Positions 273 to 23,003 of a stretch of DNA of 64,000 nt are shown piece by piece. Origin of the DNA: Mangrovimonas cancribranchiae (GTDB taxonomy: Bacteria > Bacteroidota > Bacteroidia > Flavobacteriales > Flavobacteriaceae); the NCBI RefSeq assembly GCF_037126245.1, contig NZ_CP136925.1:984001-1048000 (forward strand), given 5' to 3'. Both the position numbers and the translations under genes were made by a program. A model generated the notes under the pieces. That model had not been told where the DNA came from. It made no database searches and worked only from the letters and a program-made list of their open reading frames with translations. The first letter of the stretch is position 1; each line of letters opens with the position of its first letter.

Positions 273-1298
273 ATGTTTAAAATAATTCTTTCTATTTCAT
301 TATTCCTTTGCCATTTCATAGGGTTAGGACAAGATTTCAAAAGAGAACAACGTATTTACATGCTTGACATAACAAAGTCAATGTGGGGAGGGGATGGTTC
401 AGGAAATATTTTTAAGGAAGTTAAAAAGGCACTCTACAAAGGAATTGAAGATATTAGGGATCCTGAGACCGTTGTTAAAATAATACCTTTTCAAGCAACT
501 CATACATATTCAGAACTTGAAAACTGGACTTTTAAGGCTGGAGATAAAGCTTCTTTTCTTGAGGCCAAAAAAACAATAGATAACTATTCTATAAAAAATG
601 TTCCTGGTGGATATACAGACATTTATTCTGCATTAGAAACAGCGAAAAACAATATTGATTCCGATAGAGTTAACTATATATTTTTGTTAACAGACGGTAA
701 TCAATCACCAATTCCTAGTGCCACTAAAGAAACAAGTAAAATTGATTTTAGTGAAGAAGATTTGAAAATATCTCTTGATAATTGGTGTAATTTTTCAAGT
801 AAAAGTGAATCTCACCTTTTTTACGTTATGCTCTCTAAAACAGCATTAAACAAACCTATTATAAACATTATAAAAAAACAGTGTAACGCTTATTCAGTAG
901 AAGGAACGAATATGAACATTGCTTTTATCAAACCATATTCTAATAATATAAAAGTAAATCTACACGATAATCCGAAAAACTTTGAAATCGAATTAAATGC
1001 AAACAATTGGGATTACATAAAAGGCCAGATATTCTTGAAAATTAACTTAAAAAATAATTCAATATTTGAAGTTGTCGAGAATGATATCAAAGTTGAAAAT
1101 AAAAAAATTGTTGTTAGACTAAAAACAAAAAACAACTCTACTTTTGAAGCTCTTCGTAAAAATTTACCAATAGAGTCAATTATCCCCTTAACTCTTTCTA
1201 CAGATAATAATTTAAAAATTTTAAACCCAGTTATCAATTTAGTAATTAGAAATAAGAAAGAAAGAGTTTTAACCCTAGAATTTGTAGAAAATGAATAA
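273..1298 (+). CDS. Exported von Willebrand factor A (VWA) domain protein, first gene of tubulin-like operon
   Basis: 341 aa from the ATG at 273. A TTG at 240 is in frame, but the ATG places a typical Sec signal peptide at the very N-terminus (MFKIILSISLFLCHFIGLGQ), so I prefer it. The mature protein begins with a VWA domain: a strand ending in LDITKSM supplies a MIDAS-type DxTxS metal motif and LLTDGNQ gives the later MIDAS aspartate. The C-terminal ~130 residues look beta-rich and unassigned. It overlaps the next gene by 8 nt, so the two are translationally coupled. VWA domains usually bind a protein partner through a metal ion. The partner here is most likely another product of this operon (inference). 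Predicted location is periplasm or envelope. Confidence 0.75.
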   Translation: MFKIILSISLFLCHFIGLGQDFKREQRIYMLDITKSMWGGDGSGNIFKEVKKALYKGIEDIRDPETVVKIIPFQATHTYSELENWTFKAGDKASFLEAKKTIDNYSIKNVPGGYTDIYSALETAKNNIDSDRVNYIFLLTDGNQSPIPSATKETSKIDFSEEDLKISLDNWCNFSSKSESHLFYVMLSKTALNKPIINIIKKQCNAYSVEGTNMNIAFIKPYSNNIKVNLHDNPKNFEIELNANNWDYIKGQIFLKINLKNNSIFEVVENDIKVENKKIVVRLKTKNNSTFEALRKNLPIESIIPLTLSTDNNLKILNPVINLVIRNKKERVLTLEFVENE

Positions 1299-2196
1299 AA
1301 CCCTTACCATTTTACTAGCTTCTTTATTATTCTTTTTTAACTGTCAAAAAGAAGATTCTTTTCAAGGGGAAACTACTAATTTTGGAGTTGTTGAATACTA
1401 TCAACCATTTTTATTTTGCAAATGTGACACTATTACATTATCGAAATCACTTAGGTTTAATTTTAATGACTATTCATTAGAAAAATCATCTTCAGCTACC
1501 ATCAAATTTGTCGGCGAATTTCAAAAAGAAATAAGAGATAAAAGTTTACAACTTTATATCAACGACAATAAAGTAATAGACAATACTTTCACTATAAACA
1601 GTAAAAATGCTAAAACGGGAACTTTAAAATTGGGGCTGAAACTGCTTCCTAACTACCCTGAAGGTTATACGTCTGGTTTTATTTCAGTTGCACAACATAG
1701 CCTGGATTTAATAAACAATAATGACCTCAATACATCAAACGAAACAAGAATTTTTAAATGGGAGGCTGAGCACAAGCTCATAATGAACCCATTAAAAAAA
1801 GCCTTAATTATTGTTTTTACATTTATTTCTTCAGCATTAATTATCTGGTTTCTTTTTTTGAGAAATAAAATTTATCCAAAATTTAAAAAAGGAAGAATTC
1901 AAATTTTATCACCTTACTTTGGAAGTGTCCTCCTAAACAGGAATATTAAACTTATCATTCTTACAAGTTCTCCCAAAAAACAAAAATATTTTAATAAGGT
2001 TTTTACAGGAAAGATACAGTACGAAATAAATCCAATCTATGATAAAGATATAATTCTAAGACCTGGTAGAGGAAAAAAAATAAAAATAAAGCTTCCTCTT
2101 GGAACTCAAATATCACCACCATCGATCAACTTGGAACCGTACAATTCATATAAAGTCAAAACAGAAAAACATATAATAGAAATCCAATATTCATAA
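1291..2196 (+). CDS. Lipoprotein-like membrane protein, second gene of tubulin-like operon
   Basis: 301 aa, family not recognised. The N-terminus is a short hydrophobic signal ending in LLFFFNC followed by QKED. Cys-18 could be lipidated, and QKED resembles the QKDD-type surface-export signal described for Bacteroidota lipoproteins. A second hydrophobic helix at about residues 166-187 is followed by a basic cytosolic-looking segment (RNKIYPKFKKG). The ~140 residues between the two hydrophobic parts would then lie outside the cytoplasm and ~110 residues inside. A true outer-membrane lipoprotein would not normally carry such a helix, so a double-anchored inner-membrane protein is the other reading. 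It overlaps the VWA gene by 8 nt and precedes the tubulin-like gene by 12 nt. It is a good candidate for linking the cytosolic tubulin-like protein to the envelope (inference). Confidence 0.6.
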   Translation: MNKTLTILLASLLFFFNCQKEDSFQGETTNFGVVEYYQPFLFCKCDTITLSKSLRFNFNDYSLEKSSSATIKFVGEFQKEIRDKSLQLYINDNKVIDNTFTINSKNAKTGTLKLGLKLLPNYPEGYTSGFISVAQHSLDLINNNDLNTSNETRIFKWEAEHKLIMNPLKKALIIVFTFISSALIIWFLFLRNKIYPKFKKGRIQILSPYFGSVLLNRNIKLIILTSSPKKQKYFNKVFTGKIQYEINPIYDKDIILRPGRGKKIKIKLPLGTQISPPSINLEPYNSYKVKTEKHIIEIQYS

Positions 2197-2208
2197 AAAC
2201 ATCATATC

Positions 2209-4983
2209 ATGGCAAAATTAAAAAGAAGTCTTTTCATCGGATTAGGAGGAACAGGTTTAAAATCAATATTACATACAAAAAAACGCTTTATAGACACGTA
2301 TGGAGAAATCCCTCCAATGACCTCGTTTCTTGCTTTTGACACAGATGGTGATAGTATTAATGTGAAAATTGATAGTCATTTAGGAGGTGAACGAATAGGT
2401 CTTGATGCTTCTGAGTTTTTGCATATTAGAGTAAGAGATCCTCAAGAAGTTTTAAGGCAACAGGCGGGACTGTTTGATTTTGTTCCAAGTTCCAATAGAT
2501 CTTTGTTAGTTAGTCTTACTGATGGGGCTGGACAAGTGAGATCTAATGGAAGGTTTGCCACTCATTTTAATTATGGCGCAATTGAAAGTGCTATTAAATC
2601 TAAACTTACAGCTATTTTAAATGCTGATGCTATAAGTAATGACAAGTTTGAAGTGAATGGTAATGATGTCGAAATAAATATGATGTTTTCAGTTGCAGGA
2701 GGTACAGGTAGTGGAACTTTTTTAGATGTTGCTTATATTGTTAAAGAAGTTTCTAAAAGTATTAATTCTACAGTAGGAGTTTCAACTATAGGTTTCGCTA
2801 TTTTACCTGATGTTTTTAACTCAATGATGAATGGTCCAGCAATGGCTAATGTTTTACCCAATGGGTATGGAGCATTACATGATTTAGATTATTTAATGCA
2901 TCATAATTATGATAAAAAACCTTTAGAAATAAAATACGCTAATAAAACGATTAAAATTGAAAAACCTCCTTTTGATTTAGTTTTTACAATAAATAATAGT
3001 GACAAAAATGCAAACACTTATACTAATATTAATGATTTAAGTGAATTGATAGGCTTAGCAATGTTTACAGGAGCCAGTGAGTTAAGTGGGGGAATGACTA
3101 GCTCTTATGATAATGTTAGAACTGTAATTGCAGGAGGGTCAATGAAAGTCGAAAACAAAGATTCTTGGGCTTGTGGGTTAGGTTTAAGTGAGTTGTATTA
3201 TGACGGAAACAAATTAGGAAATATCTATGCCCATAAAGCTTCTGTTAGTGTAATAAATAATCTTATTACACCAGAAACGGACTCATTTGATTTAGATGAT
3301 ATATTTATTAATGCTGCCAAAATTAGAGAAAATAATGGGGATGAGAACAACGATTTAATTGACTCGCTTTTAACTGAAGTGCCAAGAATTCAATATACAT
3401 ACATACAGGATGCAAACTCTATTGATTCTGAAATAAAAGCTTATTTACAATCTGTAGACGAATCTGCAAAACAAGAAATAGAATCAAATTTTTCAACTAA
3501 AAAATCAGATGTTGAAAAGAAGCTTGGTAAGTTTATTATAGAACATATCAATAAACCTTCTGGAGTTGGTAATATAGATAGGTTTCTAAATGCTCTTAAA
3601 AAACACGTAAATGTTTTTTTGGAAGAAATGAAGTCGGAGCATGTAGAAAAATCTAAAAATAATGAAGTATTCCGAAGCCATTTAAATCAAAACATTTCTG
3701 AATTAAATGGTTTAAGTTTTATGGAACGTAAGTTTGGCTCAAAGTTAAAAGATACTAAGGAGGAGATAGTTCAAATGGTTAACCAGATTGCAGCTAATAT
3801 GCATGAAGTATTAAGGCGTCAATATGCTATAACATTTTTTAATCAATTATTGTTAGCAATTAGTAAACATGATCAAAATGTTAAAAATATACTACAAAAG
3901 TTACAACAAGTTGAAGAAGAGTGTGAATCTAAATTTATTGGACTCCAAAATCAAATTAATGAACAACCTAAAAAGTTTGTGAAAGAGCTTCATAGAGACT
4001 TTGTTAATCGAGTGAGTGTTTATGATAAAGATGTAAATGTGTCAGATTTTATACAAAGTATTAGCTCAAATGAAGGAGGAATATATGATTTCTCAGAAGT
4101 TTCAACTAGAATAATTTCAGACTTTTTATGGAGATATTCAAAGGGGTTGCCTAAAGCTCTTGAATACCGTAATAAAAAAATAGATGAAGTTTTATCAACT
4201 TATAGTGAAGAAGAGTTAGATAATATTGTTAAGGAACTAATTGAAAAATCAAATCCACTATGGTCATATAATTACAAAGGACATGTTGTTAACAGGCAAC
4301 ACCATGAAGCATTTATTATAGGGGTTCCTAATCTAAAATCGTCAATTTTAATAAAAAATGATATTGTAAAAAATCTTTTAGAGTCTAATCAAAAAGCTGA
4401 TTTTAACTCCACTAGTATGCATGACAGAATTGTTATTTATAGAATGGAGGCTACTGTTCCTATTTATGCAGTCTCAAATATGACGCTTTACAAAGAAAAA
4501 AGAGATAATAGTCAAATAAGTCATCATGTAGATGCTAACTGGGTTTTGAGAATGAATAGAGAAGGGTTTGATATATACCCAACTAAACGTGAAGATCACA
4601 GTTTGGAGTATTGGGTTACTGGATTTATTTATGATTACATCAAATTTGATGGTGAAAATTATTTGGCTTATAGTGAAGAACAAGGAGACCCTATTGATGA
4701 CTATTGGATAGAACTTGGAAATTATAGGGATGAGGCTTTTCTTGATTTTAAAAGACTTAAACTGCAGGATGAGTTTAAATCAATGATAGACAATAAGATT
4801 TCCGAAATTGGTGAAACCGAAAACCAAAAATTAATTAAAAAAGTCACTGAGTCTTCTAATTACAATGATCATTATTCAAAAAAGAATTTTGAAAACAGTG
4901 AGCTAAAAGATTCCAAAATGATTAAGGTTAGAGAACTATTTAGCGATGAAATTAATTTTGTTAAAAAAGTTTTAGCTAAATAA
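2209..4983 (+). CDS. Tubulin/FtsZ-superfamily protein (Tubulin_2-like), 924 aa
   Basis: The N-terminal ~370 residues have tubulin/FtsZ nucleotide-binding features. A Rossmann strand-loop FIGLGGTG lies at residues 9-16. The superfamily signature loop GGTGSGT is at 164-170 after a hydrophobic strand. A T7-like NDLSE at 275-279 recalls the DLTE of alpha-tubulin, whose Glu activates GTP hydrolysis in the partner subunit. The remaining ~550 residues are mostly charged and helical, with likely coiled coil around 400-600, so the protein is far longer than FtsZ (~400 aa). No signal peptide or membrane helix is visible, so it should be cytosolic. Large tubulin-like proteins of this kind are known to neighbour VWA genes and were proposed to act in membrane remodelling. 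Polymerisation and GTPase activity are inferred, not shown. Confidence 0.8.
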   Translation: MAKLKRSLFIGLGGTGLKSILHTKKRFIDTYGEIPPMTSFLAFDTDGDSINVKIDSHLGGERIGLDASEFLHIRVRDPQEVLRQQAGLFDFVPSSNRSLLVSLTDGAGQVRSNGRFATHFNYGAIESAIKSKLTAILNADAISNDKFEVNGNDVEINMMFSVAGGTGSGTFLDVAYIVKEVSKSINSTVGVSTIGFAILPDVFNSMMNGPAMANVLPNGYGALHDLDYLMHHNYDKKPLEIKYANKTIKIEKPPFDLVFTINNSDKNANTYTNINDLSELIGLAMFTGASELSGGMTSSYDNVRTVIAGGSMKVENKDSWACGLGLSELYYDGNKLGNIYAHKASVSVINNLITPETDSFDLDDIFINAAKIRENNGDENNDLIDSLLTEVPRIQYTYIQDANSIDSEIKAYLQSVDESAKQEIESNFSTKKSDVEKKLGKFIIEHINKPSGVGNIDRFLNALKKHVNVFLEEMKSEHVEKSKNNEVFRSHLNQNISELNGLSFMERKFGSKLKDTKEEIVQMVNQIAANMHEVLRRQYAITFFNQLLLAISKHDQNVKNILQKLQQVEEECESKFIGLQNQINEQPKKFVKELHRDFVNRVSVYDKDVNVSDFIQSISSNEGGIYDFSEVSTRIISDFLWRYSKGLPKALEYRNKKIDEVLSTYSEEELDNIVKELIEKSNPLWSYNYKGHVVNRQHHEAFIIGVPNLKSSILIKNDIVKNLLESNQKADFNSTSMHDRIVIYRMEATVPIYAVSNMTLYKEKRDNSQISHHVDANWVLRMNREGFDIYPTKREDHSLEYWVTGFIYDYIKFDGENYLAYSEEQGDPIDDYWIELGNYRDEAFLDFKRLKLQDEFKSMIDNKISEIGETENQKLIKKVTESSNYNDHYSKKNFENSELKDSKMIKVRELFSDEINFVKKVLAK

Positions 4984-5033
4984 ACAAAACACAACTTTTA
5001 TCTAATACAAATTAGACCTTTTAAAAACTTTTT

Positions 5034-8000
5034 ATGTCTTCCCCTTCAATAAATATTGGTATTAATAAACAAGGTAAAATACTTATCAAACGAATTGACA
5101 AGCATTTTAAAGATCATGAACCAGTATTTTACGAAAGTTTTATCCTTTCCTCTTCTATGGAATTGAAAAAGGATAAAAATAAACTTAAAGTTCTGAAACA
5201 GGGAGAATTTCAACTTTCCGATAACGATGACATAAAAAGTTGGTTCGACTATGAATTGTATGCAGAAATAAAAAACTTAGTTGGTCTTGTAAATGATTCC
5301 ATTAGCGACACTGTTATTGTCAATATTGTTGTTTCTTTAGCTGAAAAAGAAAGTGTTTTTATACTAAACAAGTTATTACAAGCAATAAAGGATTTAAGCT
5401 CTAATCAGATTATTTCAGGAGTTGATATAAAATTGTTTGTTATAACATATTCTCTTGATAGTAATAATCACAATGATAATTTTAATATAAAAAACGAGTT
5501 AAAAGAACTTGAAAAAACGATTCCAGAATATTCAGACCTAATAAAAGATATTTACTATATAGATGACAGAAATACAGATAAAATCATTTTACACCTAAGC
5601 TCAAATTGGCTTGCCTTTGCGTTAGCTGAGTTTTTTGTTTTCCAAATGGTTTGCCAGACTTCATTAGCTATACAAAACAAAACAAAAATTTTTGGTATAG
5701 GTATCATTCATTTTAATGAAATCTTATTTAGAAGTGTCATAACCAATAAAATACTACAGTATAAATTTAAAGAAGAGGGTATATATGATGATAAAGGCAT
5801 TCAATTCAGAGACATAATTCTAAAATGTAATCCTTTTATTTCAGAGCACCAGAATTTTTTCAATGAATTCTTTACTAAATACCCCTACAGTAAGGAAAAC
5901 AATCAAAATTTAACAGCAAACTCGGAGGAATACATTAATTCTTTTAAAGATAAATTAGAATTATTTGTTACCGATTCTAACTATACAATTGGTGAGTCGA
6001 AAGTAATTCTTGCTAATCTTTTAGGTGAAGATGATAAGAAACTACAAGGTATAAATTGGACTAATCTGCGTTTAAATATAAGTGATTTAGAATTTGATAT
6101 TATTGATTATTTCAATAAATATTTAGATAAAGAAAACAGAGTAGATTTTCATAGACAAAAGGCTTTAAGAAATAAAATAACCGAACTCAACCAAGCTATA
6201 AAAAATGATGAAAAGTCGCTAAAAATATTAAAAGAACAATCCACCGAAATTTATTCTGATTTAGACATATCTTTTGAAGAAGGCATCTTTAGTGTTGAAG
6301 GTAAGAGAATTAACGCGTCTGGTTACATCCCTTCTCCTGTAAATTTAAATGAGGACTTTTACTCCTTCGAAGATAAGCCTATTCCTAAAGCCATTGATTT
6401 ATCTAAATACCTTTCAAAGGTAAAAGACCAAGGAGAATTAGGAAGCTGCACTGCATTTCCCGTTTCAGCTGTTTACGAATTTGCAGCAAAACGTAACAAT
6501 AAGAATGTAGACATTAGCGAACTTTTCATTTACTACAATACCAGAGAAATCCTAGGAAATATCTCTGATGATACGGGTGCAACATTATTGGAAACCATTA
6601 ATTCAGTAAAAAAACATGGTGCATGTTATTCTAAAAATTACCCATATAAAATTGAATCATTCTCTGTAAAACCAGGAGAAGAAGCTTATACAGAAGCACA
6701 GCATCAAGTTGTAGAAAAAGCCTATAGAGTTAACATTACCGAAAAGGATTTCAAACACGCGATTGCCAATGGACACCCAATTATAATAGGCTTAAAACTA
6801 TTTAAATCTTTTTATCCAAAAGACAAAACAGGCCTTGTTCCATTCCCTTCGAAAGACGAAGCAAGCTTTGAAAACCATGGTAATCATGCTATGTTAATCG
6901 TTGGTTATAACGAAGAAGAAAAACTGTTTAAAATAAGAAATAGCTGGGGTAGAAATTTTGGAGAAAATGGCTATTGTTATGCGCCTTATGATTACATAGC
7001 TAATACTGAATTTTGTTTAGAAGCCTTTGTTATTACAGATATAGTAGATTTATCATTTAGTGAATTTAACTATGATTCAAATGCTAGCTTCTCATTCTTA
7101 AATGATTCATTAATAAGAAGAAAAGTCATTAAAGAATATAATCTACGTAAAAAGAAAAGGGATTTAAGAAAAGTAAAAAAAGATTATGACTTAATAGCCC
7201 TAAAAAACGAAGAGAATGAAGAACAAATTAAAAACCCTTTATTTAGAAAACAATTATTTGAAGATCTAAAAGCTCAAGAAATTCCAGCCCCTGCTATTCC
7301 CCAAGCAGAACCAGAAAAAAGTAACAAAAATCCTTGGCCTTTTATTGCCGGGGGTGTGTTCGTTATTCTTATTAGTTTATTTTTTAAATCATATATAACA
7401 ACACCCAGTTCTTTAATTGGTGTATTAGGCAGTATTTTACTCATAACTTATGGCTGTAAACTTCTATTTACTAAAAAGGAAGTTATACAACAACCTACAG
7501 TTATTGAAGACCCAAGATTATCACATGAAAGAGAACTTTATCGTTTTGAAATTGCAGATAACTTATTTCAGCTATTCGATGAAATGAATAAAAACCTTAT
7601 AATAAGATACAAAGCCCTTTCAATCTATTTTGAAAAAATTAAAAACTGGCAAAAGGAAAGTTTAGAAACTCTTAATGAAACCTTATTTGACTCTCCTACA
7701 TTTGTTGTAAATGTTGTTCAAAAAAAACCTTTACTTGATTATATCAAAAAGGAAAAAAACACGTTTTTAAAGAATCTGCCTAACCTTTCATTAACATTCC
7801 ATGAAAATTATATCCTTGAAGAAAATAACACAAATGAGGTCTTTGAAACACTATACAAAAACTATCTAAATGATATACATAGCAATATTGAAACCATATT
7901 AGATATTAGTATTGTGGATTATATTCAAGGCAGAGTGCAATACCCTTATTTCAATTCTGCTCCAGAATTGAATAAAACAATACAAAATATTCAAAAGGTA

Positions 8001-8231
8001 TCCACTCCCTTTTGCAACATAAAACAAACCACAAGTTCTTTAAACATTCAAAACTATGTCTTGTATGAAACCTTAACTAGTCATCCCGATGCCAAAACTA
8101 AAGAATTTTCAAAGCACAGACCTGCATCTATAAAACCAGTAATAACAATTAGAGACAATAAAAAGAAGTATGTCGCTGTTCAAGTAGCAGCTCTTAATAA
8201 CATTTCAGACTTAGTAAAACATAATTTTTAA
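5034..8231 (+). CDS. Papain-like (C1) cysteine protease fused to a putative degenerate tubulin-like domain, membrane anchored
   Basis: 1065 aa with three parts. Residues ~440-680 form a C1A papain-type peptidase with the full tetrad visible: Q466 and C472 in DQGELGSCTAF, H618 in GNHAMLIVGY and N636 in RNSWG. Two hydrophobic segments near 767-785 and 793-812, after a basic helical stretch, look like a transmembrane hairpin, and ~240 helical residues follow. There is no signal peptide. The N-terminal ~400 residues are not a propeptide I recognise. Segments at ~93-140 and ~170-245 match the strand/helix order of the tubulin-like neighbour (VNIVVSLA against INMMFSVA; FGIGIIHF against CGLGLSEL) but lack the glycine loop. 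It lies 50 nt after the tubulin-like gene in the same operon. The protease part is certain; the degenerate tubulin fold is a hypothesis. Confidence 0.8.
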   Translation: MSSPSINIGINKQGKILIKRIDKHFKDHEPVFYESFILSSSMELKKDKNKLKVLKQGEFQLSDNDDIKSWFDYELYAEIKNLVGLVNDSISDTVIVNIVVSLAEKESVFILNKLLQAIKDLSSNQIISGVDIKLFVITYSLDSNNHNDNFNIKNELKELEKTIPEYSDLIKDIYYIDDRNTDKIILHLSSNWLAFALAEFFVFQMVCQTSLAIQNKTKIFGIGIIHFNEILFRSVITNKILQYKFKEEGIYDDKGIQFRDIILKCNPFISEHQNFFNEFFTKYPYSKENNQNLTANSEEYINSFKDKLELFVTDSNYTIGESKVILANLLGEDDKKLQGINWTNLRLNISDLEFDIIDYFNKYLDKENRVDFHRQKALRNKITELNQAIKNDEKSLKILKEQSTEIYSDLDISFEEGIFSVEGKRINASGYIPSPVNLNEDFYSFEDKPIPKAIDLSKYLSKVKDQGELGSCTAFPVSAVYEFAAKRNNKNVDISELFIYYNTREILGNISDDTGATLLETINSVKKHGACYSKNYPYKIESFSVKPGEEAYTEAQHQVVEKAYRVNITEKDFKHAIANGHPIIIGLKLFKSFYPKDKTGLVPFPSKDEASFENHGNHAMLIVGYNEEEKLFKIRNSWGRNFGENGYCYAPYDYIANTEFCLEAFVITDIVDLSFSEFNYDSNASFSFLNDSLIRRKVIKEYNLRKKKRDLRKVKKDYDLIALKNEENEEQIKNPLFRKQLFEDLKAQEIPAPAIPQAEPEKSNKNPWPFIAGGVFVILISLFFKSYITTPSSLIGVLGSILLITYGCKLLFTKKEVIQQPTVIEDPRLSHERELYRFEIADNLFQLFDEMNKNLIIRYKALSIYFEKIKNWQKESLETLNETLFDSPTFVVNVVQKKPLLDYIKKEKNTFLKNLPNLSLTFHENYILEENNTNEVFETLYKNYLNDIHSNIETILDISIVDYIQGRVQYPYFNSAPELNKTIQNIQKVSTPFCNIKQTTSSLNIQNYVLYETLTSHPDAKTKEFSKHRPASIKPVITIRDNKKKYVAVQVAALNNISDLVKHNF

Positions 8232-8239
8232 TAAAATCT

Positions 8240-9163
8240 ATGGTGAAAGTCAATCTTAAATTAATAGGTCTATTACTATTAATTTTATTCTGTTCATGTT
8301 TACCTGAAGTTTCACATTCAGATAAACTTTTTAATGAATTTACAGATTCATCAAATAGCGCTCTTAGTTTACAAGAAGTAAACTCTTCGAATAATGTCTC
8401 ATCTCATAATCCATTAAATATTATGAGTTGGAATATTAGAGACCTAGGAAGAACAAAAAATGCAGAAGAAATTCATCAAATAGCTCAAATACTTAGACGC
8501 TCAGACTTAGTAGCTATACAAGAAGTCGTTGCTAAAGATCCAGCAGGTGCTCAAGCAGTGGCTAAAATAGCTGATGAACTAAACAGGATGGGTAGCAAAT
8601 GGGATTATACCATTAGTAACCCTACAAAAAGTCCATCTTCCCATATAAGTGAGCGTTATGCTTTTTTATGGAAAACCCATAGAGTAAAAATGTTGAATGA
8701 GCCTTACTTAGCATCTAAATTTGAAAATGAAATGTATAGAGAACCTTATATAGCTAATTTTAAGTTTAAGGATAAAGACCAACCAATAAGTATAGTAAAC
8801 TTCCATTCTAGAAAGTATTACGATAAGCCAGAAGAAGAAATTATACACTTTACTAGTTTGGTGAAAACTTTAAGCCATGAAGCTGTTGTAATAGTGGGAG
8901 ATTTTAACTTGACTGAAAAGCATAGAGTTTGGAATTCGTTATATGAAATAGGGTTTCAAAATGCATTGTCAAACACAAAAACCACTCTTAAACAAAAATG
9001 TCATTTTGGGCAATACAGAAATCATGCTATAGACAATGTATATTACAACGAATATCTTATAAAGATAAATGCCCAAGCTATAGATTTAGTTAAAACGTGT
9101 AAAAACTTAAAGTTTGTTAGGGAACTATCAGATCATTTACCTGTTATGTTCACTTTTCAATAA
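8240..9163 (+). CDS. Exported endonuclease/exonuclease/phosphatase (DNase I-like) family lipoprotein
   Basis: 307 aa, starting 8 nt after the protease gene. The N-terminus is a lipoprotein-type signal (LLLLILFCSC, Cys-20 as lipid site), so the enzyme should act outside the cytoplasm. The EEP fold motifs appear in order: MSWNIRD, AIQEV (metal-binding Glu), SERYAF, VNFHSR (catalytic His region), VGDFN and a final ELSDHLPV. DNase I-like enzymes use these to cut DNA with Mg2+; the same fold also includes phosphodiesterases and lipid phosphatases, so the substrate is not settled. The repeated SERYAF and HSRKYY context is closest to bacterial secreted DNase I-like proteins. Its place at the end of the tubulin-like operon suggests joint function or at least co-expression. 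Confidence 0.8.
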   Translation: MVKVNLKLIGLLLLILFCSCLPEVSHSDKLFNEFTDSSNSALSLQEVNSSNNVSSHNPLNIMSWNIRDLGRTKNAEEIHQIAQILRRSDLVAIQEVVAKDPAGAQAVAKIADELNRMGSKWDYTISNPTKSPSSHISERYAFLWKTHRVKMLNEPYLASKFENEMYREPYIANFKFKDKDQPISIVNFHSRKYYDKPEEEIIHFTSLVKTLSHEAVVIVGDFNLTEKHRVWNSLYEIGFQNALSNTKTTLKQKCHFGQYRNHAIDNVYYNEYLIKINAQAIDLVKTCKNLKFVRELSDHLPVMFTFQ

Positions 9164-9219: not shown

Positions 9220-9948
9220 ATGATTAAAATAAGGAAAAACAATATTATGAAACAAAAGACTAATGCAATGACTAAAGAAAAATTAATTGAAAAGATTAAA
9301 TGTCAGGTTTATAAATCAAGAGAACTTATTGACGGTAATGGAGGTTTTCATATTCGTAGAGGAATGGCTCATGCGATATCAGGGTATTGTGAAGATGTAT
9401 TTGCATTATATGTAGCTCAATACTTAAATAGAACTGATTTGAAATTTTTTGTAGACAAAGTGATTTCTACAAGATTTCCTGGCAATGAAAAATCAACATC
9501 CTTTAAACCTGATTTAGCTATTATTAATGAAAACAATGTACTTACACATTATTTTGATTTAAAAACTAATTTGGGCTGGAATAGAAAATTAGAAAATTAT
9601 TTAACCGAAAAAGATAACTTCATACGTAAACTTAAAAATCACAATAAAGCTTGGGTGACTAGTAAAAGAGATTGGTTAAAGAATGTTGACGACAAAGGAA
9701 ATGAAATCAAATTTAATAAAACTTTTAAGTTAGATTCTCGTGAAAATATCACTATTTCAGATGATTTAGAATATCACATGGTTGTGGTATTTGGAGGCAA
9801 CATGAATGAAGAAGATATGATTCGAAATATTGACGTAGCTAATACTTTAAGCTGTGTTAGAATTAATGTTTTATATGAAAATAAACAAATTAATAATAAA
9901 GCTTTTGAAAATATTCATATGGTTTTGAAGCCTTTATTAGGAACTTAA
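9220..9948 (+). CDS. Hypothetical protein with a PD-(D/E)XK-like nuclease motif
   Basis: 242 aa, family not recognised. A Glu in GYCEDVF, then KPDLAI, then after ~12 residues FDLKT give the E...PD...DxK order of the PD-(D/E)XK nuclease fold found in many restriction enzymes. No signal peptide or membrane helix is visible. In-frame ATGs at 9247 and 9268 are alternative starts; the first ten residues are weakly supported. It sits 56 nt after the exported nuclease on the same strand and could extend that operon, but the gap is larger than within it. If active it would cut nucleic acid in the cytosol. The motif match is short, so the assignment is tentative. Confidence 0.55.
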   Translation: MIKIRKNNIMKQKTNAMTKEKLIEKIKCQVYKSRELIDGNGGFHIRRGMAHAISGYCEDVFALYVAQYLNRTDLKFFVDKVISTRFPGNEKSTSFKPDLAIINENNVLTHYFDLKTNLGWNRKLENYLTEKDNFIRKLKNHNKAWVTSKRDWLKNVDDKGNEIKFNKTFKLDSRENITISDDLEYHMVVVFGGNMNEEDMIRNIDVANTLSCVRINVLYENKQINNKAFENIHMVLKPLLGT

Positions 9949-12921: not shown

Positions 12922-14982
12922 ATGAGTAAACAGTTAGATGCTTTAAAAGCCAACTTTGTAAAAAAACAAGAACAATTAGGATATGCTAAGAAACAATTGA
13001 AAAAAGAGTTTTTTGGAATAGATCATGCCATAGATCAGCTTATTAATCAAATCAGACCTTGGTATATATTAAACGATTATCAAGATAGACCATTGATTAT
13101 AAATCTTTGGGGGTTGACAGGCGTTGGTAAAACGTCTTTAATTCAACGTATGGCAGAGTTGATGCATTACTCTAACAAGTTATACAGGTTTGACTTAGGA
13201 GATAAGCGTAATAGCTCTCTTCATAGAGATCTAGAAGAATTGTCCGATAACAACGAAGAGAACCCTATCATGATTATGCTTGATGAATTTCAACATTCTA
13301 GGACTTTAAAAGGGCCGATGCGAGAAGAAATTAATGAGGATGCCAATCGTAAAGTTTGGGATTTAATAGATTCAGGCAAGATAGAGTACCACTTTTGGAA
13401 ACGAGGGTTATACAATTTTATTACTCATGTAGAGCTTTTAAAGCATTTGTTAAAGGCTGGGATAAAAGTAAAAAATGGTGTCGTGGTAGAAGGTGTTGCG
13501 CTATTTAATTCAGAATTAGAAAAACAAGATCATCACTTTGACTTTGATAATGATGGAGAACAACCGTGTCAGTTCGTTCAAAGAATATATTATAGTGATA
13601 TTGTTGAGTTTAGTTCGGGACAATTAGGGGTTTATTTAATGGAAGACGTAAAGTCTCATCTTATGACATTGGATGGTGATGAGACCATTATGTTTCTAGA
13701 TAAGGTTATTAGAATAGCCAAAAAACCTAATATAAAAAAATTTACGAAAGCCTTAATTTTTGTTGTTGGAAATTTAGATGAAGCGTATTCTATGAGTGGC
13801 GTTCTTAGTGCAGATATAAATGCCGATAACTTCCATGAAGCGTCATTAAAAATAACATTACCACAAATTAAAAGAGCCTTGTCTTGTCGATTTAGAAAAG
13901 AACAAATTGCTAGGCTGGGGAATAATCATATTATTTATCCTTCCTTGAACAAAGAAGCTTATAACCAAATTATAGCCTATGAACTAACTCAAATTTCTCA
14001 AAAAGTAAAAGATGGTTTTGGTATCTATTTAACGTTTTCTGAAGCTTTATCAGGGTTAATCTATAAAGAAGGTGTTTTTCCAACGCAAGGCGTAAGACCA
14101 GTTAAAACGACAGTTAACTTTATGGTGCAATCTAATTTACCAGAAATGATATCAGAAATCATGCTTAAATATATTGATGTAGATACCATCAACTTAACGT
14201 ATTTAGACAATCATATTATAGCGGAGTATTTTAATGCTAAACATAAGATACATAAAAAGACATTTAAGGTGTCAACACCTCTTGAAGATATGCGTAAGCC
14301 TAAACAAAATGACATTCAGGCCATAACAGCTGTGCATGAAAGTGGTCATGCCGTTTTATCTGCAATTTTATTACAAGTTGTTCCAGAACATGTCTGTTCC
14401 ATGACATCAGATCCTACAAGTTTTGGTTATGTGCATACAAAATGGCCATGGAAATATATAGCTAAACACGAAATAGAAAAACGTGTAGCGGTTTATTTAG
14501 GAGGTTTGGTTGCTGAAGAGTTAGTGTTTGGCGAGGATTACATAACTACGGGAGCTTCAGAAGATATAAGTCAAGCGACGCGCTTTGTAGGAAGAATGCT
14601 TAAATATAATGGTTTAGGTAATACACCAATAGAATATAACACAGATGAAAATGACAATTTAAGCTACCATGATACAAAAGAAATTGAGTTAGATATTAAA
14701 CAAATCGTAGAAAAAGGACTAGAATTAGCTAAAGAAACATTAAAAAAAGAAATAGTTCTATTATTAAAGTTATCAGACTTTTTAAGTGATCACTCGTCGA
14801 TAAATAAATTACAATTAGAAAAGCTGATTAAGGCGCATAAAGTATCTAACGTAGATTTTATAACAAATGGCGACAATCTTTTTTATCGTAAAACATTAAA
14901 AAAGAAAATCTCTCAAGATCTAAAACAGGTGTCACGAGAGTTATTTGAATCTGTAACGTTAAATAAGAAAGATAACATATAA
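12922..14982 (+). CDS. Soluble AAA ATPase fused to an FtsH-like M41 metalloprotease
   Basis: 686 aa. Walker A GLTGVGKT is at residues 64-71 and Walker B-like MLDEF at 119-123. The C-terminal third is an M41 peptidase with HESGH at 472-476 and the downstream signature GGLVAEELVFG plus TTGASEDISQAT, where D548 is the expected third zinc ligand. Unlike FtsH there is no N-terminal transmembrane pair, the ATPase part is more ClpA/torsin-like than FtsH-like, and ~300 residues separate Walker B from the protease. It should be a cytosolic ATP-driven protease of unknown target. The SLOG gene upstream is the likely partner. The 359 nt that follow have no gene: they hold a 106-bp repeat and the hip operators. 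Confidence 0.8.
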   Translation: MSKQLDALKANFVKKQEQLGYAKKQLKKEFFGIDHAIDQLINQIRPWYILNDYQDRPLIINLWGLTGVGKTSLIQRMAELMHYSNKLYRFDLGDKRNSSLHRDLEELSDNNEENPIMIMLDEFQHSRTLKGPMREEINEDANRKVWDLIDSGKIEYHFWKRGLYNFITHVELLKHLLKAGIKVKNGVVVEGVALFNSELEKQDHHFDFDNDGEQPCQFVQRIYYSDIVEFSSGQLGVYLMEDVKSHLMTLDGDETIMFLDKVIRIAKKPNIKKFTKALIFVVGNLDEAYSMSGVLSADINADNFHEASLKITLPQIKRALSCRFRKEQIARLGNNHIIYPSLNKEAYNQIIAYELTQISQKVKDGFGIYLTFSEALSGLIYKEGVFPTQGVRPVKTTVNFMVQSNLPEMISEIMLKYIDVDTINLTYLDNHIIAEYFNAKHKIHKKTFKVSTPLEDMRKPKQNDIQAITAVHESGHAVLSAILLQVVPEHVCSMTSDPTSFGYVHTKWPWKYIAKHEIEKRVAVYLGGLVAEELVFGEDYITTGASEDISQATRFVGRMLKYNGLGNTPIEYNTDENDNLSYHDTKEIELDIKQIVEKGLELAKETLKKEIVLLLKLSDFLSDHSSINKLQLEKLIKAHKVSNVDFITNGDNLFYRKTLKKKISQDLKQVSRELFESVTLNKKDNI

Positions 14983-15341: not shown

Positions 15342-15557
15342 ATGCACTATAAAACATTAATAGAAAGTGTAAAATCCCGTAGAGATACGCTTAAAATTAC
15401 ACAGGAAATGCTCGCAGATCTTTCAGGTGTAGGTTTGCGTACACTAAAACAGTTTGAAAGTGGTAAAGGTAATCCAACACTGGAAACGTTAACCAAAATA
15501 GGTGATACGTTAGGTATGGAACTTATTTTTACTACTAAAAACTTAACAGCTGATTAA
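15342..15557 (+). CDS. hipB: HipB-like XRE-family antitoxin/repressor
   Basis: 71 aa, almost entirely one XRE helix-turn-helix: TQEMLADLSGVGLRTLKQFESGKGNPTLETL carries the Q, A, S, R and E-x-G-x-x-N-P-T pattern. It is the first gene of a three-gene unit in which successive genes overlap by one base in TAATG, so translation is coupled. In HipBST systems HipB binds the operator and forms the complex with HipS and HipT. Two dyads upstream are probable binding sites. Confidence 0.85.
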   Translation: MHYKTLIESVKSRRDTLKITQEMLADLSGVGLRTLKQFESGKGNPTLETLTKIGDTLGMELIFTTKNLTAD

Positions 15558-15883
15558 TGCGACAAGTCCAAGTTTTATATAAAAAGGAAGCTGCTGGGGT
15601 ATTATCACAGTTAGATAATGGTAGCTTTGTGTTTAAATATTATGATCAATGGTTTAATAACTCAGATAAGCCAGCTATTAGTTTAACTCTACCCAAAACA
15701 CATCAAGAATATACATCTAAATATCTGTTTCCTTTTTTTTATAACATGTTGCCAGAAGGCTCGAATAAACAAGTTGTTTGTTTTGAAAACCGTATAGATG
15801 CTAAAGACTACTTTAGTATCTTAATGGTAACAGCCATGCATGATACAATCGGGGCGATAACCATTAAAGCGGTAAATAAATAA
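15557..15883 (+). CDS. hipS: HipS-like protein (separate HipA N-subdomain-1), probable antitoxin
   Basis: 108 aa. It matches the N-terminal couple_HipA region of HipA: a beta-rich start, SLTLPKTHQEY, then LFPFFYNMLPEGSN, a hallmark of that subdomain. In two-gene hipBA loci this segment is part of the kinase; here it is a separate gene, as in the tripartite HipBST system of Escherichia coli, where HipS rather than HipB neutralises the kinase. It starts inside the hipB stop (TAATG) and ends inside the next start. Confidence 0.8.
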   Translation: MRQVQVLYKKEAAGVLSQLDNGSFVFKYYDQWFNNSDKPAISLTLPKTHQEYTSKYLFPFFYNMLPEGSNKQVVCFENRIDAKDYFSILMVTAMHDTIGAITIKAVNK

Positions 15884-16866
15884 TGATTTTTACAGATATA
15901 AAATATTGCCCAAGTACACTTGCAGAAGGTTACACAACTTATAGCAATACAGCTTTAAGGCGTGTGTTTAATGGTAAAAAAGTAAGTGTTGTTTTATCGT
16001 ATGATTCGCCAACAAATAATGCTACTACAGATGAATTATTTTCAGACAATAGAAGCCGTATGTCTATATCTGGCGTGCAAGAAAAATTTTCAGTTTTATT
16101 AGATAAAAATAAATTACGGTTGATACAAGAAGGCGAGCAAGGGCAATACATCTTAAAGCCTATTCCAAATGTTGGTAAAAACACCTATTTAATGCCTGCA
16201 AACGAGCATGTAACCATGCAAATAGCACGTCAAGTGTTTGGAATTGATACCGCAGAAAATGCACTAATATTTTTTAAAAATGGCGAACCCGCTTATATAA
16301 CAAAACGGTTTGATGTTAAAAATGATGGCAGCAAATGGGCTCAAGAAGACTTTGCGTCATTGGCAGGTAGAACCCCGCAAACACATGGCGAAGATTATAA
16401 GTACACAGGTAATTATTTAGAGCTTTTCACACTATTAAAAACGTATGTGCCAGCCTATACTATAGAGTCTATTAAATTGTTTAAGCTTATTTTGTTTAAC
16501 TATTTATTTTCTAATGGCGATGCACATTTTAAAAACTTTTCTTTAATAGAAACCCCTTTGGGAGATTTTAAATTAAGTCCTGCTTACGATTTACTAAATA
16601 GTAGATTACATATAGCTGATAAAGATTTTGCATTAGACGAGGGGTTGTTGCCACCTAATTTAACAAAAGGTAAAATTAAAGAGCAGTTTTATATTTTAGG
16701 AAGCGAAGCTAACATAGCTAAAAAACAAATAGAAAACGTGTTTACTAATTTAACGTCTAAACAGGATAAGGTACAAGCATTAATTGAAGCCTCTTTTTTA
16801 GATGAAAAAGCAAAAAGAAACTATACTCAAGCTTATCAAACTAGATTAAAAAAACTAATGCGTTAA
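15883..16866 (+). CDS. hipT: HipT-like serine/threonine kinase toxin
   Basis: 327 aa, a HipA-family kinase lacking N-subdomain 1. The catalytic loop NGDAHFKNFS contains D213 and the metal-binding aspartate is D236 in SPAYDLL. The glycine-rich loop has SISGVQEK with S61 and S63; HipT of E. coli has a comparable Ser-Ile-Ser that is autophosphorylated. HipA/HipT kinases phosphorylate aminoacyl-tRNA synthetases (GltX for HipA, TrpS for HipT) and stop growth; the target here cannot be told from sequence. Its stop lies 31 nt before the right 106-bp repeat. Confidence 0.85.
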   Translation: MIFTDIKYCPSTLAEGYTTYSNTALRRVFNGKKVSVVLSYDSPTNNATTDELFSDNRSRMSISGVQEKFSVLLDKNKLRLIQEGEQGQYILKPIPNVGKNTYLMPANEHVTMQIARQVFGIDTAENALIFFKNGEPAYITKRFDVKNDGSKWAQEDFASLAGRTPQTHGEDYKYTGNYLELFTLLKTYVPAYTIESIKLFKLILFNYLFSNGDAHFKNFSLIETPLGDFKLSPAYDLLNSRLHIADKDFALDEGLLPPNLTKGKIKEQFYILGSEANIAKKQIENVFTNLTSKQDKVQALIEASFLDEKAKRNYTQAYQTRLKKLMR

Positions 16867-21508: not shown

Positions 21509-22876
21509 CTATTTTAATAAATGCGAATAGTCATCAGGGATAGCCGCATCAATACTACGTAAATATTTCTCTAAAGCATCCATGGTTGAATGCCCTGTAA
21601 TTAACATGATTTTACTTTTAACTTCATGCGGTGTACTGTTTTTTATTAAGGATTGATAAAGCTTGGTTATAAAGGTGTGTCTAAAACTGTATAACCCGTA
21701 GTTTTTACCAAGCTTAAAATGGTTTTTAACGACTTTTCTATAGCGCGCAGAGAAGTGGTTTCTTTTGTTTGTTTCATCAATATCCCAATAACCACCTATT
21801 TTTTCTGGTGTAAATAAATGCATATCGCCATCAAGCAGGGATAAGTCAGGTAGGTCTTTTAATAATATGTTGGGAATACGCTTAACTTCTAGCGGGTTGT
21901 TTTTTGACTTAAATTGAAGTAATCCCTCCTTAACATTGATGTCTTTAATTTTAAGCCTACAAACTTCTATAGGTCTTAAAAAGTTATAGGAAATAAATTT
22001 GATGTATAAGAGTAGGATAGGATCTTCCGTTTTTAAGTAGTCGAAAATATCTTGCTGTGTTTTATGAGAATACGTCTTGTTACGTTCAGGTTTTGTTTTT
22101 AGCGCCTTTATTTTCTTCACATGATTAGCGGGAATGATATCGTTATCTTCCATAGTTTGCATTAAAGAACTAAGATTGGTTCTATAATTATTGCAATTTC
22201 TAGCACTCGACCTTGATAGTACCTCATTAAGATACGTCATAATAACAGCCTTATCGACCATGTCTATGGTTGTTATGTTAGGGCGTTCATCTTTAAGCCA
22301 ACTAATAAATTTATCTGCATGAGCTCGATAATCCTTAAGCGTTCTTTCGCTAACAACATTCTTTTTTAAGTGCAAGCTTAAACCAAAGGCTTTTTCTAGC
22401 GATGTGCCTGTTGTTTCTTGCTCAGTATTACTTGTAGCTATGTTGTCTTGCTTTTGAATTACTGGGGTGATAGGCTGTTGTATTGGTTTTGGTATAGAGG
22501 ACGTTTCGTTTTGGGTGTTTACGGCTTCAGGTTGACTCTCTTTGTTTATTAAATGCTTGTTATCCTCAAAAGGATTGTAGCCTTTTTTAAGTAATATAAG
22601 GAGTCTTTTTCTATAAATGCTTAAAACCTCAAAACGCTCTTCTTTCTTTTTGTAAGTATTAGCAATGCCATAAATATTTTTCATACGTTCTAATTTTCCC
22701 GTTTTAGGGTTTCTAAAAGAAAAATAGACATACCAACGCTTACTTAAATCACCTTTAGCATTGTAAATTTTTGGGGTTGAAAATTGGGGCTTTTTTCTCA
22801 AATTGTGTTCCGAATCGTGTTCTAAATCGTGTTCATTTCTGTGTTCAAATGTAATAAAATCGTTTAATAAAGACAT
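21509..22876 (-). CDS. Tyrosine recombinase / site-specific integrase
   Basis: 455 aa. The N-terminal ~90 residues are an arm-type DNA-binding region (KRWYVYFSFRNPKTGKLERM), then a core-binding SAM-like domain near 165-250 and the catalytic domain. Active-site parts visible are Arg in FLRPIEVCRL, YSFRHTF (R-H, with Tyr in place of the usual first His), LITGHSTMDALEKYL with GH and the nucleophile Tyr. The protein appears full length. Its start is 54 nt from the 3' end of tRNA-Met and it reads away from it, the classic layout of an element integrated at a tRNA gene. Confidence 0.85.
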   Translation of the reverse strand: MSLLNDFITFEHRNEHDLEHDSEHNLRKKPQFSTPKIYNAKGDLSKRWYVYFSFRNPKTGKLERMKNIYGIANTYKKKEERFEVLSIYRKRLLILLKKGYNPFEDNKHLINKESQPEAVNTQNETSSIPKPIQQPITPVIQKQDNIATSNTEQETTGTSLEKAFGLSLHLKKNVVSERTLKDYRAHADKFISWLKDERPNITTIDMVDKAVIMTYLNEVLSRSSARNCNNYRTNLSSLMQTMEDNDIIPANHVKKIKALKTKPERNKTYSHKTQQDIFDYLKTEDPILLLYIKFISYNFLRPIEVCRLKIKDINVKEGLLQFKSKNNPLEVKRIPNILLKDLPDLSLLDGDMHLFTPEKIGGYWDIDETNKRNHFSARYRKVVKNHFKLGKNYGLYSFRHTFITKLYQSLIKNSTPHEVKSKIMLITGHSTMDALEKYLRSIDAAIPDDYSHLLK

Positions 22877-22909: not shown

Positions 22910-22929
22910 TTTTGAAATGATTACATTTG

Positions 22930-23003
22930 TAGCGAGACCGAGATTTGAACTCGGGACCTCCGGGTTATGAATCCGACGCTCTAACCAACTGAGCTACCTC
23001 GCC
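22930..23003 (-). tRNA. tRNA-Met (CAT anticodon)
   Basis: 74 nt on the minus strand without encoded CCA. The acceptor arm pairs GGCGAGG with TCTCGCT (two G-U pairs), the T arm is CCGAG-TTCAAAT-CTCGG, and the anticodon CAT is at 22967-22969. The G1-U72 pair is not the mismatch of an initiator tRNA, so an elongator tRNA-Met or a lysidine-modified tRNA-Ile2 is expected. Confidence 0.9.

Follow-up and report, generated by a model that had tools for sequence, protein, structure and literature searches.

A conserved five-gene operon pairing an FtsZl1-type tubulin with a predicted pseudo-tubulin–papain protein on a tRNA-Met island of Mangrovimonas cancribranchiae

The 64,000-nucleotide stretch analysed here from the genome of Mangrovimonas cancribranchiae, a marine flavobacterium (contig NZ_CP136925.1, positions 984,001 to 1,048,000; hereafter the window) carries a self-contained unit of five genes, the fourth of which appears to encode a degenerate tubulin fold placed N-terminal to a papain-type protease. 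It is this arrangement that is new: operons of FtsZl1 tubulins with VWA proteins, and the listing of tubulin and vWA gene sets among conflict systems, are already known, and the open-access literature searched yielded no account of a protease joined to a degenerate tubulin. We tentatively read the unit as a mobile, membrane-spanning conflict or defence system, probably anti-phage or anti-plasmid, in which tubulin assembly would control the protease.

Five same-strand ORFs, all on the + strand, fill positions 273–9163 of the window, separated in turn by −8, 12, 50 and 8 nt. A preliminary description of this DNA had picked them out as closely spaced or overlapping genes for a VWA protein, a lipoprotein-like anchor, a large tubulin-superfamily protein, a papain-type protease and an exported nuclease, and these gene and domain assignments hold. 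Scanning the five proteins against Pfam gave matches to VWA_2 (E 1.3e-6), Tubulin_2 (9.2e-53), Peptidase_C1 (1.3e-19) and Exo_endo_phos (1.4e-6) and none for the second protein; the same scan found OmpA, P-loop GTPase and GAP1-type GTPase domains absent among the five. None of the PADLOC 2023 system models matched any of the five proteins at E-values up to 1. A Bacteroidetes-type promoter motif, TAGGTTTG, at 235–242 was set aside, its frequency in the window being no higher than chance.

Relatives of the tubulin were sought by means of short exact peptide patterns in the genomes of 84,980 species, a search whose reach is close relatives only, and five loci were recovered. Aestuariibaculum sediminum (L002) and Brumimicrobium glaciale (L005) carry all five genes in an order identical to that of the window. 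A Marixanthomonas MAG (L004) carries the tubulin, papain protein and nuclease genes and a Bizionia MAG (L003) the first two of these, both loci lying at a contig edge. In a Bacteroidales MAG (L006) the VWA protein and the adaptor are a single 569-aa protein, followed by a tubulin (30% identical) and a papain protein, and the fifth gene encodes something other than a nuclease, so that the nuclease is not strictly required. The expectation that the five genes would keep company in other genomes is thus borne out, with the full set in two species and part of it in the Marixanthomonas and Bizionia MAGs, and such conservation as a unit is more than chance. Nucleotide homology between the window and the A. 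sediminum locus starts at 243, stops at 9044 and is seen nowhere else in the region compared (window about −1600 to 24000), which indicates that the five-gene block has moved between unrelated surroundings. Across the same pair, dN/dS ratios of 0.04–0.22 for the operon genes indicate purifying selection. Values of dS are 0.26–0.44 for the VWA, adaptor and papain genes and 1.1–1.3 for the tubulin and nuclease genes, an approximately fourfold difference that suggests recombination inside the block. Viral contigs yielded no relatives and phages a single weak match.

The fourth gene (5034–8231, +), defined by its ORF, Pfam matches and alignment, encodes a protein of 1065 aa in which the papain (C1) protease domain (PF00112, E 1.3e-19) spans residues 451–649 (6384–6980, +). 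Its catalytic tetrad, reported as complete from the outset, consists of Q466, C472, H618 and N636 and is intact in all five full-length proteins (those of the window, A. sediminum, B. glaciale and the Marixanthomonas and Bacteroidales MAGs). The preliminary description was right about the protease but overlooked two other parts of the protein, a tubulin-like N-terminus (residues 1–250; 5034–5783, +) and a two-helix transmembrane (TM) hairpin found by hydropathy scan at residues ~770–812 (7341–7469, +). The hairpin is predicted, from the topology inferred, to leave both the protease and the C-terminus in the cytoplasm and, as no signal peptide was seen, the protease is most simply regarded as cytoplasmic and membrane-tethered. 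The papain domain's closest plasmid relative, in Deinococcus, was rejected as a further member, lying outside any tubulin operon.

Two largely independent lines of evidence, from sequence profiles and from structure prediction, agree in pointing to a degenerate tubulin fold at residues ~1–250 of this protein. Compared as a whole with the profile of seven close tubulins, the protein fell short of significance (E 0.068); restricting the query to the N-terminus and diversifying the tubulins brought the match to significance. Alignment of residues 1–440 by hhalign to varied sets of Tubulin_2 proteins, drawn from the window and other genomes, gave E-values (pairwise, not database-wide) of 2.6e-5 (14 sequences) and 6.7e-6 (21 sequences), and 3.5e-5 against the N-terminal half of tubulin alone. 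Against the 14-sequence set, the reversed control and 20 column-shuffled controls all gave at least 0.14, as did the papain domain and the C-terminal part of the same protein, the VWA protein, the adaptor and the nuclease. Comparison of the C-terminus with the C-terminus of tubulin gave an E-value of 0.0027, which is no more than suggestive.

For the structural test, residues 1–280 were modelled with AlphaFold2 from an alignment of six homologues that included no tubulin. The model is of moderate confidence (pTM 0.63, mean pLDDT 57), with blocks of pLDDT 74–88 in the core strands and helices and values below 50 over the final 70 residues; a full-length model (pLDDT 41) was not used for fold claims. 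Foldseek placed FtsZ at the head of its PDB matches (E 1.5e-3, probability 1.0, TM 0.36), the top 30 being mostly FtsZ or tubulin, and VIA-align returned a Z of 12.6 over 192 residues to tubulin, in a list filled with FtsZ/tubulin-superfamily chains. The N-terminus would therefore share its fold with FtsZ, alpha, beta and gamma tubulin and CetZ, yet it differs from them in its ~10% identity, in the loss of the nucleotide loops and in being fused to a protease and a membrane hairpin. At the T4 position, the glycine-rich loop of an active tubulin-superfamily GTPase is replaced by SLAEKES (residues 101–107), and all six sequences lack glycine there; the pseudo-tubulin is thus not expected to bind nucleotide as tubulins usually do. 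A search for the domain in 395 Bacteroidia genomes returned the window's own copy and one marginal partial match, leaving unsupported the idea that other effectors are attached to the same pseudo-tubulin.

The tubulin encoded by the third gene (2209–4983, +) presents a different picture. This 924-aa protein matches PF13809 over residues 8–349 (E 9.2e-53), well within the cut-off, and has a VWA gene two genes upstream in its operon, as is characteristic of the FtsZl1 (Tubulin_2) family. Both its T1-like loop (GLGGTG, residues 11–16) and its T4 loop (GGTGSGT, residues 164–170, the motif that had first drawn attention to it) are conserved in relatives. Set against the GTP-loop pattern GGGTG(S/T)G, residues 163–170 read AGGTGSGT, the first G being replaced by A, likewise in several relatives. 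The preliminary description had supposed a tubulin able to bind nucleotide, and the retained loops predict one. The distribution of PF13809 is patchy: it is present in 3 genomes of a family sample of 397, in 9 of a phylum sample of 395 and in 3 of an order sample of 396.

The remaining three proteins are placed by prediction at or beyond the inner membrane. The first gene (273–1298, +) encodes a 341-aa VWA protein with a hydrophobic N-terminus and a signal peptide, predicted to be periplasmic; we take its start to be the ATG at 273, matching the A. sediminum start, with the TTG at 240 given as an alternative by the ORF tool. The D-x-T-x-S of its MIDAS motif is DITKS, the T and D positions are retained, and the motif is kept in A. 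sediminum, B. glaciale and the Bacteroidales MAG. The second gene (1291–2196, +) encodes the 301-aa adaptor, identified by TM scan. Its N-terminal signal peptide ends in a lipobox-like FFNC, in keeping with the anchor originally proposed, and is followed by a periplasmic part and, according to a hydropathy scan, by a TM helix at residues ~172–190 (1804–1860) and a cytoplasmic tail of ~110 aa. Given that VWA protein and adaptor are fused in the Bacteroidales MAG, and that a number of distant operons (L027, L028, L029 and Meiothermus) encode a single VWA–TM protein, the two are likely to work as a pair spanning the inner membrane.

The fifth gene (8240–9163, +) encodes a 307-aa DNase I-like EEP nuclease (PF03372, E 1.4e-6), an exported lipoprotein as judged by its lipobox-like N-terminus. 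Among solved structures in the PDB it is best matched by DNase I (E 4e-9), and the predicted catalytic residues are E138, H189, D221/N223, D265 and H299. Both the lipobox-like N-terminus and complete DNase I motifs are found in four loci, and the nuclease is the least conserved operon member, with 63% identity in A. sediminum as against 87–95% for the others. Directly after the operon, and outside the conserved block, positions 9220–9948 encode a 242-aa protein with a PD-(D/E)xK-like stretch (KPDLAI...YFDLKTN).

The operon forms part of a genomic island. An integrase of the tyrosine-recombinase type (21509–22876, −) lies beside a tRNA-Met gene (22929–23003, −; ARAGORN) that is the integration site. 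A direct repeat of the final 43 bp of the tRNA gene is present at genome positions 982671–982713, 1.3 kb left of the window, which sets the length of the element at 24.3 kb. At the same tRNA-Met a sister species (G028) has an island with an 87%-identical integrase, a 99%-identical HipA and a complete type I restriction–modification (R-M) cargo, and the unequal identities of integrase and HipA suggest that parts of the island move separately. The hotspot there (L064, 2800–13927) holds the type I R-M set together with a PDC-M64-like pair and has the appearance of a swappable cargo slot. Elsewhere on the window's island are a HipA-like pair (15557–16866), a 686-aa protein (12922–14982) in which a ClpA/ClpB-like AAA+ region, weakly matching DolB, is joined to an M41 zinc peptidase of the FtsH type, an amidohydrolase and lipoproteins. 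Just left of the window, a divergent gene (18515–19183 of L019) encodes a possible regulator, a protein of 222 aa that has a single TM helix and whose relative in A. sediminum, 36% identical, is likewise located upstream of the operon.

FtsZl1 (Tubulin_2, PF13809)/VWA operons were described by Makarova and Koonin (2010; PMC2875224), who proposed a role in membrane remodelling, and the preliminary description was correct in linking the window to them. The window operon has in common with these the Pfam tubulin family with its GTP loop, an adjacent VWA gene and membrane-bound partners, but is without OmpA, kinase and P-loop GTPase; conversely, its pseudo-tubulin–papain fusion and DNase I-like lipoprotein are absent from the main text of that article. 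Tubulin and vWA gene sets have since been placed among conflict systems (Kaur et al. 2020; PMC7159879). The GAP1-N2 GTPase-centric systems of that study likewise bring together vWA proteins and tubulin genes, of which firmicutes have two, in a context predicted to be one of conflict, whereas the window operon has neither a GAP1 nor a zinc-ribbon GTPase and its second tubulin is degenerate and protease-bearing.

More distant operons provide a further comparison. Three Thermales plasmids (L040, L041 and L045) encode in line a VWA protein, a Tubulin_2 protein, a protein of ~680 aa and BrxL, with HmaC upstream in one case and a helicase and methyltransferase downstream in another, and are candidates for a tubulin-bearing defence system. 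Their tubulins are 26–30% identical to that of the window and the order of VWA, tubulin and further gene is shared, but papain and nuclease genes are missing and BrxL follows the ~680-aa protein. At two other distant loci, L028 and L020, the product of the gene that follows the tubulin gene also scores against the tubulin profile (1e-6 and 4e-5) and against its N-terminal half (2.6e-4 and 2e-5), so that pairing with a diverged tubulin may be a wider trait; the equivalent protein of L029 is borderline (0.026 and 0.13). The ~680-aa Thermales protein, an Azospirillum neighbour and L027 were rejected as pseudo-tubulins, having no detectable tubulin likeness in profile comparison.

How might such a unit work? 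In the reading that we tentatively favour, the VWA/adaptor pair would sense an event at the envelope (the adsorption of a phage, for example, or the entry of DNA) and signal inward. The tubulin with a GTP site and the pseudo-tubulin would then co-assemble at the membrane, as a hetero-oligomer or filament, and this assembly would cluster or unleash the papain domain, whose cleavage of cytoplasmic targets could stop growth or block the invader. The outward-facing nuclease would cut DNA that is periplasmic or on the cell surface. With VWA protein and nuclease outside and tubulin and protease inside, the coupling between the two sides is conjecture. It is conceivable, if on balance unlikely, that what we see is a bacterial tubulin heteropolymer acting as an immune signalling scaffold, in which a GTP-dependent tubulin and a dead tubulin–papain protein respond to an outside signal by assembling together at the membrane and so bring about proteolysis; by analogy, and with the same reserve, this would be a cytoskeletal counterpart of inflammasome-type protease activation.

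The main rival to a conflict role is an envelope or membrane remodelling machine, with polymerised tubulin to curve or organise the inner membrane and a protease and nuclease that process or scavenge. The tubulin family and VWA partner shared with the operons of Makarova and Koonin (2010), and the membrane attachment of three or more components, are what such a machine would lead one to expect. We nonetheless judge it unlikely, for the operon sits on a swap-in island that has R-M as its alternative cargo, is very patchy in its spread and is without OmpA or P-loop GTPase by Pfam, and the remodelling inference was itself questioned by a reviewer (in PMC2875224). The preliminary description had already preferred conflict or defence to remodelling because of the island setting. 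That preference is strengthened by the tRNA island, by the R-M cargo of the sister species, by R-M, Hma and BrxL genes neighbouring relatives (R-M genes adjoin the A. sediminum and Marixanthomonas operons) and by the placement of Kaur et al. (2020; PMC7159879), and was reached with the pseudo-tubulin unseen. Islands carry much else, however, and the defence context is therefore guilt by association.

Another reading is that these are general-physiology genes, for stress, motility or extracellular nutrition, carried on the island by chance, as the amidohydrolase and lipoproteins also found there could imply. Movement of an exact five-gene block between unrelated contexts, and the R-M genes that neighbour its relatives, make this distinctly unlikely. 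An exported DNase I-like lipoprotein with complete motifs, lying within the shared block, would also suit a barrier to DNA entering by conjugation or transformation, with the nuclease as main effector and the tubulin and protease regulating its export or release; we consider this improbable given that the nuclease is the member that has diverged most and is replaced in the Bacteroidales MAG. A mobile setting and a HipA neighbour would fit an island maintenance or addiction module in which cells that have shed the element are poisoned by the protease or nuclease. Five large proteins and a transmembrane sensor are, however, far from a toxin–antitoxin design and no candidate antitoxin was seen, and this we regard as very improbable.

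No tested function for FtsZl1 tubulins since 2010 was found in the literature searched. A dead tubulin joined in nature to a protease offers the family its first concrete, assayable output. If the conflict or defence reading is right and the unit is immune in function, tubulin assembly would here serve as the switch for a defence enzyme, which would account for the occurrence of FtsZl1 family members near R-M, Hma and BrxL genes.
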